From IMG/VR virus record IMGVR_UViG_3300009509_000027, positions 1 to 50,707 of that record: a stretch of 50,707 bases of DNA. One strand, given 5' to 3'. The stretch comes from a virus. The notes below the pieces were generated by a model. It was not told where the DNA came from and did no database searches. It saw only the letters and a program-made list of their open reading frames with translations. The translations under genes and the position numbers were made by a program. This document shows, one piece after another, positions 3,575 through 17,686 of this stretch (position 1 is its first letter; each line of letters begins with the position of its first letter).

Positions 3575-3999
3575 ATCGATTCTCCTGAATGAAGTATCAT
3601 TGTTCGATAGAGCATTCTGCATTTTTCGCAATGGCAGACTTTCCACTCCGACATTTCACTGCCGATCTTTTCGAGCTGTTCGTTTTCTGTTGCCCAGCAG
3701 AGGAAGTCTGCCAGGGCCGCAGCTTGTTCAGAGAAGTATCGGTAGGTGTAGTGACTATGCCTGTGACAGCACCACGAGTCATGCCTTGCCAGGGTGATAG
3801 ATCCGACCCATGATGTCACTATATCAGTGACATCAAGCTCTTTTGCAAGGTTTGTAACAACTCTATACAGTGATAGCAGGGCTGCGTCGTGATCTACAAA
3901 CTCCTCTAATACCATCATATCTTGTTCACAACCGGCCAGCTCATTTTCACCGGCGTACAGTGTGAAGTCGATATGGTATATCGGAAATTTTCCGCCCAT
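3565..3999 (-). CDS. Hypothetical protein
   Basis: 144 aa. The start ATG at 3999 overlaps the stop of the previous gene (TGATG), indicating coupled translation. The protein is acidic, with a histidine/cysteine-rich middle (SWCCHRHSH) and a C-terminal CHCEKC knuckle, so it may bind zinc. No family is recognised. Confidence 0.65.
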   Translation of the reverse strand: MGGKFPIYHIDFTLYAGENELAGCEQDMMVLEEFVDHDAALLSLYRVVTNLAKELDVTDIVTSWVGSITLARHDSWCCHRHSHYTYRYFSEQAAALADFLCWATENEQLEKIGSEMSEWKVCHCEKCRMLYRTMILHSGESICG

Positions 4000-4199
4000 C
4001 AGACCTCTTCCCAGTCCACAATCTCTCCACCTTCAACGACTTCGTCCAGATAATCTTTCAGGTCCGCTGTTTCGTGATCCTGACCGGGGATATCGACAGT
4101 CTGCTGAACGGTGACCCGGATTGTTACTCGGTGAAACTTGCCGCGTGCTTCGGCCAAGGCTTCGTCACGTTCGGCCTCACGATCATCATTGATACACAT
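3999..4199 (-). CDS. Small acidic hypothetical protein
   Basis: 66 aa. The start at 4199 has an AGAGGAG site; the open frame extends back through the tRNA gene, but that part is not coding. The sequence is charged (DDREAERDEALAEARG, then a beta-like RVTIRVTVQQTVDI), ending in an acidic tail. It lies 30 nt downstream of tRNA gene 1, so both are probably on one transcript that must be processed. Confidence 0.6.
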   Translation of the reverse strand: MCINDDREAERDEALAEARGKFHRVTIRVTVQQTVDIPGQDHETADLKDYLDEVVEGGEIVDWEEV

Positions 4200-4228: not shown

Positions 4229-4369
4229 CGAGGGTGGATGGATTCGAACCACCGATCCCGATGTCACGCGGCTCTTGTCGGTTGCACTCCGCCAAGATCG
4301 GCCCACGTCTGTGCCGTGCCAAGTTGTGCAAAGAACACCGGAGCTTTAGGCCACTAAGCTTACACCCAC
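4229..4369 (-). tRNA. tRNA gene 1, anticodon loop interrupted by about 67-nt insert (possibly tRNA-Arg UCU)
   Basis: Acceptor strands 4363-4369 and 4230-4236 pair over 6 of 7 positions. The D arm has palindromic stem bases around AGTGG, and the T arm at 4237-4253 has the canonical TTCGAAT loop. Anticodon-stem halves are 4337-4341 (CCGGT) and 4258-4262 (ATCGG), but 74 nt, not 7, lie between them (4263-4336), giving 141 nt in all against a normal 74. If splicing keeps the 5' piece GTTCT, U33 precedes UCU, which reads AGA/AGG Arg codons; the splice points are inferred. CCA is not encoded. The insert is homologous to that in tRNA gene 2. Confidence 0.75.
4263..4336 (-). other. Insert in tRNA 1 anticodon loop (candidate small intron)
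   Basis: This is 74 nt including the 7 expected loop bases. It holds a hairpin at 4273-4297 with one internal G.A and the 7-nt loop AGTGCAA. The GTGCAA of that loop is exactly complementary to TTGCAC at 4326-4331, suggesting a 6-bp pseudoknot. It is far shorter than known group I introns, and no archaeal bulge-helix-bulge is evident at the usual site. Confidence 0.6.
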
Positions 4370-4594
4370 GTGAATATCAATTTATTAAATAGCTTCAATT
4401 ATAGTATAATACAAAATCGGCCAGGATACAAGCGGAAAATCAGATTTTTTTCATTTTGTGTTATAGGACGTTTGTCGCACTTCCGATGCTGCCCCGTTAT
4501 TTCTCCAGCCTTTCGGCTTTGTAGGCGTGGACAGTCTTTAGATGACGCCTCGTTATTCGGTCAGGTATGATAATATATTGACCTACAATAACGC
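4370..4594 (-). other. Non-coding spacer between the two tRNA genes
   Basis: No gene is seen. On the minus strand, immediately after tRNA gene 2, a two-part stem forms (CGTTATT with AATAACG, then GGTCA with TGACC) between about 4552 and 4594, but no U-run follows. Further hairpins follow (GGCGT/ACGCC, and AGCC-GAAA-GGCT). The motif AATAACGRGGC occurs twice. The left part contains the promoter of tRNA gene 1. It could be a processed 3' tail or a separate structured RNA. Confidence 0.4.
4403..4431 (-). promoter_or_regulatory. Promoter for tRNA gene 1 and downstream genes
   Basis: The -35 TTGTAT is at 4426-4431 and the -10 TATACT at 4403-4408, with a 17-bp spacer. Its position about 34 nt upstream of the tRNA 5' end is sensible. 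Confidence 0.55.
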
Positions 4595-4762
4595 TGAGGG
4601 CGGTGGGATTCGGACCCACGATCTTCGTCGGCTCGCGGTCTTGGGTAGTTGCACTCTACTTAAGTCCGGCCCGGTGCTGTACTGTGCCCTGCTGTGCACG
4701 ACCAGGGTGCAACACGGCACGGGAGAAGACGACGCTGCTTTAGGCCACTAAGCTACGCCCCC
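4595..4762 (-). tRNA. tRNA gene 2, anticodon loop interrupted by about 94-nt insert
   Basis: Acceptor strands 4756-4762 (GGGGGCG) and 4596-4602 (CGCCCTC) pair fully with one G.T; discriminator A is at 4595. The D arm is GCTT...AAGC around AGTGG, and the T arm at 4603-4619 has the loop TCCGAAT. Anticodon-stem halves are 4731-4735 (GCGTC) and 4625-4629 (GACGA, one mismatch), separated by 101 nt. In this register the 5' loop piece gives U33 and CUU (Lys). An alternative register gives CU-UCU (Arg) but needs extra bases after the D arm, so identity is open. Total length is 168 nt; no CCA is encoded. Confidence 0.7.
4630..4730 (-). other. Insert in tRNA 2 anticodon loop (candidate small intron)
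   Basis: The 3' two-thirds aligns along its length with the insert of tRNA gene 1 (shared GGGCCG, GAGTGCAAC, CAAGA and CCGCG blocks), with about 27 extra nt at the 5' side. The hairpin at 4637-4667 has the same AGTGCAA loop on a stem whose closing pairs differ from gene 1 but remain paired (GTAG/CTAC against CGG/CCG). TTGCAC at 4707-4712 could pair with the loop. Confidence 0.6.
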
Positions 4763-4804
4763 ATTAAGTTTTTCACTTCTCAAAGAGCTTTCCTCTCTAT
4801 CTAA

Positions 4805-4832
4805 AGTATACTACAGATTCGAGAGGATGCAA
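4805..4832 (-). promoter_or_regulatory. Promoter for tRNA gene 2
   Basis: The -35 TTGCAT is at 4827-4832 and the -10 TATACT at 4805-4810, with a 16-bp spacer. It lies about 43 nt upstream of the tRNA and overlaps the end of the previous gene's trailer. Confidence 0.6.
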
Positions 4833-4840
4833 ATGGAAAA

Positions 4841-7823: not shown

Positions 7824-8028
7824 CTAAACATTCTCCGAGTTCAGGAAATAAGACCTCGACGTCCTGGGTGCCATAGATCTCAGAGAACACTTGTTCTAAG
7901 ATCCTGCGATTATAGTCGATGTCCGCCCCGCTGTCTTGTCCCTCAACGGCACACTTGATGATATACTCACTTTCGATGCGAGTCATCGCGGTGCCCTTTA
8001 CGAACACGATAGCAGTTGTGATATTCAT
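7810..8028 (-). CDS. Small acidic hypothetical protein
   Basis: 72 aa, strongly acidic at the C-terminus (ELGECLDDTD). The ATG at 8028 has a GAGGA site and is the first gene after the promoter at 8038-8066. Function unknown. Confidence 0.6.
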   Translation of the reverse strand: MNITTAIVFVKGTAMTRIESEYIIKCAVEGQDSGADIDYNRRILEQVFSEIYGTQDVEVLFPELGECLDDTD

Positions 8029-8037
8029 AATATCCTC

Positions 8038-8066
8038 ACTATATCAAATTTACTCAGGTTTGTCAA
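8038..8066 (-). promoter_or_regulatory. Sigma70-type promoter
   Basis: The consensus -35 TTGACA is at 8061-8066 and the -10 TATAGT at 8038-8043, with a 17-bp spacer. It lies within the end of the preceding gene and drives the 8028-6712 operon with a leader of only a few bases before the ribosome site. Confidence 0.75.
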
Positions 8067-8277
8067 TCATTTTTAGGATGATTTTGAATGATTTTTTAGG
8101 CAGTTCTTGGCAATATCCGAGCCAAAACTGGTTGCAGGCCGGATTTATACATTTCCGCACAACCGCCCCGTGCTTATTTTCTACAAGGCCGAAGGCAGAA
8201 GGTTTGACTTTTTGTGGTGTGCCCAGGAAGCTTTCACACGTCCTACATCTTATTCTGTCGTCTCCTGGTATTGCCAT
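8050..8277 (-). CDS. Small zinc-finger protein
   Basis: 75 aa with CRTC near the N-terminus and CINPAC about 25 residues later, a four-cysteine zinc-binding pattern, then a basic C-terminus (LPKKSFKIILKM). It follows the primase-helicase gene by 8 nt and may assist DNA transactions. No family is recognised. Confidence 0.65.
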   Translation of the reverse strand: MAIPGDDRIRCRTCESFLGTPQKVKPSAFGLVENKHGAVVRKCINPACNQFWLGYCQELPKKSFKIILKMIDKPE

Positions 8278-16219: not shown

Positions 16220-17686
16220 TTATGTGTTTGCATTATAGGACTCAAGCCACTTTCTGATCCTACCGTCAATCACCTTCGAAGCGTTGTCAAACTTGAACCG
16301 CAGAGCGTCTATGATATCGACATCTTTCGTACCGTCAGCCACAATATCAATGTAGTGCACACGATCTTCTTGCCCAGCTCGGTGATTGCGATCTTCGCTT
16401 TGGTGACGCTCTTTCATCTTGTAGCTGTTGCTATAATAGATTGTCGTCTTCGCTTCATTCAGTGTATGTCCCTCACCCATGCTCTCAGGTGTTGCTACTA
16501 TGAATTGTGTTTTGTCAATTGGATCTTTCTTGAAGCGTAGTTTGTTGTCTTCGCGTTCGTCTTCGTCAATGGACCCATCCCATCGGACGGCAGTGTCACC
16601 AAGCATGTCACAGATAAGATTTATGTCTTCGATGAACCTTGCCCAGATGATTGTTTTGTGCGGAAGATCCTGTGTGATCTCGCCGAGTGCTTGCAGCCTG
16701 GGGTTTTTGTCTTCGATCATAACACACTCATTCTCATTGCCGGTCGGCAAATAACCACAAGCAATTTGCTGTAGCCGGAGAAGCCGGGTGATCGCCAGCG
16801 GCGTGAAGATCATTTCACCTTCGAGGCATGTAAAAAATTCGTCTTCGATCTCTTTGTAGAGTGCCCATTGCTTCGGCGTCATTTCAAAACCTGAGTATGA
16901 GTATAGCTTTGGTGGTAGATCGAGCACGTCTTCCTTCAAGACACGTGAGGAAATTGACTCAACTAACTGAGTAAGTATTTCCAAATTCTTATAGCCGACG
17001 CATACGTCGTACTCTCGGTCCTGCTTTCCGTTATAGCCTTTCTCCCAAACACCGAAGAAGGTTTTGAAACACTGGAAGCTACCAAGACCATACGGCGTAT
17101 CACTCCAAAACTTCTTATTCAGAAATCTGAATTGAGTATAGACATCGAACGGCGTGTTTGTGATCGGTGTACCACAGAGCGTTCGCTTGTACTCCGCGTA
17201 GTCGGCGGAAGCCAGGATCGTTCGAGTGATCTTCGCCGAAGGTGTCTTGAACCTGTTTGACTCATCGCCGACGTAAAGACACTTCCGCTTCGTCAAAAAC
17301 GCTTTCGCCAGCTTCTTTCCGCTGTCCGTCTTGATCCCTGGGTATGACATCGCCAAGATCGGAAGGTGTCCAGAGCCAGCGTTCAACACTGCGGAGCATT
17401 CGGCCTGATGCTTCTTCGTCTTTGATCGCGTAGTTTTGAAAGCAACCGCAGCATGGGGTAGGTCGAAGTGGTCCGGGATCTCGTAGTTTACCCAGTTGGT
17501 GTGAAGCCCAGGTGGGGCAACGACGAATAGGCCGTCAATCTTGCCTGCCTTGTATAACTCCTCAGCCGTTGCCAGGGCGAGCCATGTCTTGCCCGTGCCT
17601 TGTTCCCAGTGGATAGCTCTGACGGGGTCGTGAGCGTGTAGCTCCAATTCTTCTTTTTGCTTGATATGCAGTGGAGTAGTTTTCAT
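16220..17686 (-). CDS. SNF2-family DNA helicase/translocase
   Basis: 488 aa. Walker A EQGTGKT (28-34), motif Ia VVAPPGLHTNW, motif II VGDES (141-142), motif III RTLCGTPITN, motif V TPESMGEGHTLN, motif VI SEDRNHRAGQ. This order identifies an SNF2-like double-stranded DNA translocase, common in phage replication modules and thought to aid replication or recombination. The ATG overlaps the preceding gene by 4 nt. Confidence 0.9.
   Translation of the reverse strand: MKTTPLHIKQKEELELHAHDPVRAIHWEQGTGKTWLALATAEELYKAGKIDGLFVVAPPGLHTNWVNYEIPDHFDLPHAAVAFKTTRSKTKKHQAECSAVLNAGSGHLPILAMSYPGIKTDSGKKLAKAFLTKRKCLYVGDESNRFKTPSAKITRTILASADYAEYKRTLCGTPITNTPFDVYTQFRFLNKKFWSDTPYGLGSFQCFKTFFGVWEKGYNGKQDREYDVCVGYKNLEILTQLVESISSRVLKEDVLDLPPKLYSYSGFEMTPKQWALYKEIEDEFFTCLEGEMIFTPLAITRLLRLQQIACGYLPTGNENECVMIEDKNPRLQALGEITQDLPHKTIIWARFIEDINLICDMLGDTAVRWDGSIDEDEREDNKLRFKKDPIDKTQFIVATPESMGEGHTLNEAKTTIYYSNSYKMKERHQSEDRNHRAGQEDRVHYIDIVADGTKDVDIIDALRFKFDNASKVIDGRIRKWLESYNANT

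Follow-up and report, generated by a model that had tools for sequence, protein, structure and literature searches.

Insert-bearing tRNA-like RNAs in a noncoding array of Yua-like phages, tentatively read as tRNA mimics

Described systems and their likeness to the locus

Bacterial tRNA genes have been described as structurally uniform, with group I and group II introns as the only notable exception (PMC4033280). We analyzed a phage locus that holds two tRNA-like genes, A and B, each with a long insert in the anticodon arm. Bacterial group I tRNA introns are likewise inserted in the anticodon loop, but their catalytic core takes up about 100 nt, set among about ten helices (PMC4033280), whereas the inserts here measure about 70-100 nt. 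The preliminary description of this DNA, made from the sequence alone, had rightly put them far below group I introns in length, and none of the intron families in Rfam matched. Neither the group I catalytic core (P3-P8) nor another Rfam intron or ribozyme gave a match at E-values up to 1, and a group I intron or other such Rfam family was rejected on this ground. Protein-spliced tRNA introns of archaea and eukaryotes are also short (<100 nt) and located in the anticodon loop, and RtcB seals the archaeal ones. Unlike these, the present inserts belong to a bacterial phage, follow a sigma70-like promoter and a boxA-like leader, and have an anticodon helix of unfixed length and no bulge-helix-bulge (3-nt bulge, 4-bp helix, 3-nt bulge), an absence noted earlier that agrees with the predicted folds as judged by eye.

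The Y RNA YrlA (RF02553) and the rsr-yrlBA-rtcBA operon share with this locus a tRNA-like module, an anticodon stem leading into a long non-decoding arm, and proximity to RtcB. The tRNA module of YrlA is permuted, with the T arm before the D arm and a closed acceptor, in contrast to the RNAs of the window, which follow the normal tRNA order with open acceptor ends. The phages also differ from this operon in having no Ro/TROVE protein: PF05731 was absent from the 13 records searched, among them the window and every close relative, and a Ro/Y RNA system was rejected for this reason. RF02553 itself had no match in the window and reached 20.9 bits in the relative L046, far below its cut-off of 69. 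We accordingly use the operon as an analogy, not as a family assignment. YrlA has been proposed to act as a competitor of an anticodon nuclease (PMC7790460).

Phage tRNA arrays, e.g. that of the contig L172 (18 tRNAs), are likewise clusters of stable RNAs with tRNA units, and in L172 a boxA-like GTTCTTTGAAAA stands before several of them; unlike in the window array, most L172 units are ordinary tRNAs called by ARAGORN. This contig is an unrelated AT-rich phage in which the boxA-like TTCTTTGAAAATTTA or CTCTTTGACAATTTA is repeated before units (L172:7337-12137), with possible tRNA-like units bearing odd arms near positions 8000-8200. In rRNA operons, boxA leaders recruit NusB/NusE to the transcripts. 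The order of such operons, in which a promoter, a boxA element (NusB/NusE antitermination) and untranslated structured RNA follow one another, recurs in the phage arrays, but these hold no rRNA and their boxA is identified by similarity only. A precedent for the RNAs described below was found neither in Rfam, nor in 50,697 phage records, nor in the open-licence literature searched, and INPHARED yielded no similar array.

tRNA-like RNAs A and B and their array

The window is the whole stretch of 50,707 nt that was analyzed (IMG/VR record IMGVR_UViG_3300009509_000027). It represents a Yua-like siphovirus, the nearest matches to its portal and primase being Bordetella phage CN1, Pseudomonas phage YuA and siphoviruses related to them (~48-52% identity). 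As a clue to the host, genomes were scanned for prophages, and only distant primases were retrieved. All window features below lie on the minus strand and are given from promoter to downstream gene, except that A and B are described together.

Gene A (4229..4369) and gene B (4595..4762) each combine acceptor, D and T arms with an insert between the anticodon-stem halves, of 74 nt in A (4263..4336) and branched, of 99-101 nt, in B (4631..4729), and the predicted full-length RNAs measure 141 and 168 nt respectively. The Rfam tRNA model covers both over their full length, with the three arms at tRNA spacing and scores of 38.6 bits for B and 28.8 bits for A, the latter just under the gathering threshold of 29. 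ARAGORN run on the window called neither gene, and an Rfam search of the whole window at the gathering threshold gave no matches. In the Rfam tRNA alignment the stem halves are 74 and 101 nt apart, the same spacing as first reported, instead of 7, and a 5-bp anticodon stem closing a 7-nt loop is absent from both genes. The three arms had been described as normal in size and pairing; the full-length alignment bears this out except in the acceptors, where A has a U2-U71 mismatch and B a G-U pair. D- and T-arm signatures are well kept in A and B. The free MFE fold of B is a cloverleaf whose anticodon arm carries two hairpins, and the arm of A folds into an outer helix of ~8 pairs with two hairpins; free energies by themselves are unremarkable (z ~ -0.4 for both). 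Permuted or long-variable-arm tRNAs were considered and rejected, since B has no rightly placed 5-bp stem with a 7-nt loop and A has only 3 bp. An anticodon inside the insert hairpin (loop AGUGCAA, UGC) was rejected too, this loop having no U33 and being absent in most other phages.

Local alignment of the two inserts scored 49, the highest score among 2000 dinucleotide shuffles being 37, and the four blocks listed in the preliminary description (GGGCCG, GAGTGCAAC, CAAGA and CCGCG) were all found in both. On these comparisons the A and B inserts are homologous, which upholds its claim that they descend from one element. In the second insert hairpin the loop AGUGCAA is kept while the stem GCGG/CCG is replaced by GTAG/CTAC, a change compensated at two pairs. 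Pairing of TTGCAC with the loop GTGCAA in a pseudoknot is a possibility; of this pairing, only UGCAC/GUGCA is backed by the aligned positions, and no covariation accompanies it. In some copies, inspection by eye suggested that the two insert hairpins may form kissing loops. Patterns built on the inserts and searched in IMG/VR returned only chance matches or normal tRNAs.

Upstream of B, the promoter scanner identified a sigma70-like promoter (4805..4833; TTTGCA, 17 nt, TATACT), and the same architecture (TTGCAT/TATACT-type) precedes the arrays of the relatives L028, L046, L055/L058, L056 and L057. Downstream of TATACT, the leader contains the element GCTCTTTGAGAA (4777..4788). Between promoter and structured RNA, five phages have GCTCTTTGANAA and L046 has the variant ATCTTTGACAA. 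In 2.64 Mb (both strands counted; 1.3 Mb of relatives), GCTCTTTGANAA occurs 6 times, against ~0.6 expected from its 11 fixed bases, and all 6 occurrences head these arrays, 3' of TATACT. The published gamma-proteobacterial boxA consensus is GYTCTTTAANA (PMC5725501). GCTCTTTGANAA is one base off this consensus, and we call the leader element boxA-like by this similarity. Before the 16S genes of 299 genomes, the boxA variant had no match at an assumed spacing of 90-120 nt, a result that carries no weight either way. A hairpin, AGTGGTTGG...CCAACCACT, lies directly 5' of the boxA-like element in one relative (L058:16230-16310) and recalls the boxB-boxA order of rRNA leaders.

Between B and A lies a conserved structured RNA, termed motif2 (4489..4585), with a hairpin AGGCGT/ACGCCT and a small hairpin; it has no Rfam match. 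Its sequence (AGGCGTCAWCTARARWCTGTCCACGCCTACAA...GGGGCAG) is nearly invariant in the window, L028 (15283-15377), L046 (838-991, minus) and L057 (16904-17000), except for one hairpin that is short in the window, L028 and L057 and greatly extended in L046. Its loop CTGTCC could form a pseudoknot with GGGCAG. Upstream of A, we read a weak promoter-like site from the sequence (4403..4431; TTGTAT, 17 nt, TATACT, then GCTATTTAATAAATT), which scores below the threshold of the promoter scanner. Downstream of the array, a 66-aa gene (3999..4199) serves as a syntenic marker, L027, L028 and L046 each having an orthologue in the corresponding position.

Arrays and insert-bearing copies in related phages

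A primase search of IMG/VR retrieved relatives at 94% (L027), 81% (L028), 74% (L046/L054), 73% (L055/L058), 72% (L056 and L057) and 58% (L059) identity. These are metagenome contigs; L055 and L058 are identical to each other at the array locus, and the independent phages number five or six. The window, L028, L046, L055/58, L056 and L057 have a noncoding array at the same place, mostly 5' of the small conserved gene. In L027 the array is cleanly missing between the two flanking genes (L027:15823-15850), and none was found in the portion of the L059 record examined.

The composition of the arrays varies. A plain GC-rich hairpin directly follows the leader in L028 and L056, and L028 combines an array and RtcB with no insert-bearing tRNA-like RNA. 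The L056 array contains an ordinary tRNA-Ile(GAT) and tRNA-Gln(TTG), which makes tRNA maturation of array units plausible. At L056:16730-17350 we counted at least 6 units (a long GC hairpin, an insert-bearing tRNA-like RNA, two other structured RNAs and these two tRNAs), separated by similar spacers of the ATTATACC type. A further tRNA-like gene in L046 (759-830, minus; Rfam 45 bits) has a GC-palindromic anticodon arm, GCCGG-CGA-CCGGC, and was not called by ARAGORN.

Overall, five phages yielded seven tRNA-like RNAs whose anticodon arm holds 54-102 nt, all at one syntenic locus: A and B from the window, a pair from L046 and single copies from L055/58, L056 and L057 (5 of the 6 arrays). A geometric scanner run over 2.64 Mb placed A, B, L046_1 and L056_2 among its top five matches (scores 43-46); the fifth, L100, scored 43 and is probably a chance match in coding sequence, and a reversed-sequence control reached 39. 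The remaining copies were found by eye and by folding. The unconstrained MFE structure is a cloverleaf for B, L046_1, L046_3 and L057_1, and for L056_2 and L058_1 the cloverleaf is near-optimal once the acceptor and T arm are forced, although the z-scores of the MFE do not reach significance for A, B, L046_1 or L046_3.

Over the seven copies, 47/49 acceptor and 34/34 anticodon-stem positions form standard pairs, with 2-5 pair types per position; the pairing registers were set by hand, so that these counts lean towards the model and are supportive rather than a formal test. At that strength, they suggest that compensatory changes have kept the helices of the tRNA body. The T stem of L058_1 is poor (3/5 pairs), Rfam tRNA scores are low for most copies, and the D- and T-loop signatures have drifted in most of them, several being non-canonical: the T-loop TTCRA is kept in one of the seven insert-bearing copies, as against 3/3 of the ordinary genes, tRNA or tRNA-like, in these arrays. 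Alignment found no sequence homology among inserts of different phages, and the anticodon helix varies from 4 to ~9 or more pairs. The inserts usually form two hairpins on this extended helix, a shape that carries little weight because ~40% of shuffled inserts give it too.

RtcB and the weighing of explanations

An intact gene for the RNA ligase RtcB lies 1-3 kb downstream of the array, on the same strand, in L028, L055/58, L056 and L057, and the L028 protein matches solved RtcB structures (1.7e-35). RtcB is also intact in L059, which shows no array, is reduced to a C-terminal relic in L046, and has no copy in the window, in L027 or in 17 other relatives. Since it is common among phages generally (650 records), its association with the array is no more than suggestive, and since it is absent from the window phage and a relic in L046, it is not needed alongside the array. 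An apparent ATP-dependent ligase start follows RtcB in L059 (RtcB at 16302-17470, ligase from 17650), and a ligase-like ORF with a weak PF01068 match directly follows the L056 array. This RtcB synteny in relatives, together with the promoter, the boxA-like leader and motif2 between A and B, is context that the preliminary description had not noted.

Two readings of the genes had been offered at first, namely tRNAs split by a small intron and tRNA-like RNAs of a new type. Comparative evidence favors the second; the first is disfavored, there being no common splice boundary. In archaea and metazoans, RtcB is the ligase that acts in tRNA splicing. An undescribed class of small introns, removed by self-cleavage or by an unknown endonuclease and followed by sealing of the exons by phage or host RtcB into working tRNAs, would account for the position of the inserts where tRNA introns sit, for the RtcB genes downstream in most relatives, and for the U found at position 33 (canonical numbering) in A, B and L046_1. 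Yet position 33 is C or G in 4/7 copies, A and B have a pyrimidine at position 37, and across the copies neither a conserved boundary nor a plausible anticodon loop can be drawn, the anticodon helices having 4 to ~9 or more pairs and not a fixed 5. The missing bulge-helix-bulge, the absence of Rfam intron or ribozyme matches, the degraded elbow signatures (T-loop lost in 6/7 but kept in ordinary neighbors) and the lack of intact RtcB in the window and L046 also count against splicing, which we regard as improbable. With an RtcB gene close by in most relatives, it keeps a small chance, of the order of one in ten; that these would be short (~50-100 nt) branched bacterial tRNA introns, sealed by RtcB and spliced with a protein or ribozyme outside groups I and II, appears slightly less probable still. 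Decoding without splicing, by translation tRNAs with an odd anticodon arm, is highly improbable: the L056 array does contain two canonical tRNAs and A and B keep their D- and T-arm signatures well, but no anticodon loop of 7 nt lies at the distance required, and the decoding centre could scarcely accommodate an arm of 62-113 nt.

The loss of the cluster in L027, the low Rfam scores of most copies and the several non-canonical D- and T-loops are what decaying tRNA pseudogenes with random insertions would leave behind. This origin is nonetheless quite improbable given the compensatory acceptor and anticodon-stem changes across the seven copies, a promoter and boxA conserved in six phages, and an insertion site that is the same every time. 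More weight, though still as a rather unlikely alternative, goes to regulatory RNAs scaffolded on a tRNA, in which the body would serve only to stabilize and process the RNA while the variable arm bound a target (mRNA, protein or DNA) outside tRNA biology. Retained bodies, combined with inserts unrelated in sequence from one phage to the next, fit this arrangement, which resembles the engineered tRNA scaffold for RNA production (PMC3753655), but fast turnover of the arm would be expected of decoys too, and the RtcB synteny suggests a role related to tRNA.

We consider it probable that A and B belong to a class of RNAs in which a tRNA body serves release and stabilization by host enzymes and the anticodon arm has been replaced by a non-decoding one. 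The full explanation, that they are phage tRNA-like noncoding RNAs and not intron-split translation tRNAs, acting as mimics and most likely as decoys, is put forward tentatively, at a little less than an even chance. Under this explanation the short array would be transcribed from the sigma70-like promoter with its boxA-like leader, and rRNA-style antitermination by NusB/NusE would let transcription pass the array's structure. Host tRNA-processing enzymes would then cut out the units, as they would the ordinary tRNAs beside them, the tRNA body allowing their release and stabilization, and the long helix with hairpins in place of the anticodon arm would preclude decoding. The products would be tRNA mimics, for which the likeliest role is that of competitive decoys for a host tRNA-targeting factor, e.g. 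an anticodon nuclease, while RtcB, in most relatives, could reseal cut tRNAs. Taken by itself, this decoy function against a host factor is doubtful, if conceivable.

If the explanation is true, a phage lineage has repeatedly built long branched arms at the anticodon position of tRNA-like RNAs, behind an rRNA-like leader and near an RNA-repair ligase, and these would represent phage noncoding RNAs of a new kind. They would also provide a naturally occurring parallel to the tRNA scaffold of biotechnology, and would offer a direct test of the proposal that tRNA mimics are decoys for tRNA-cutting defences.
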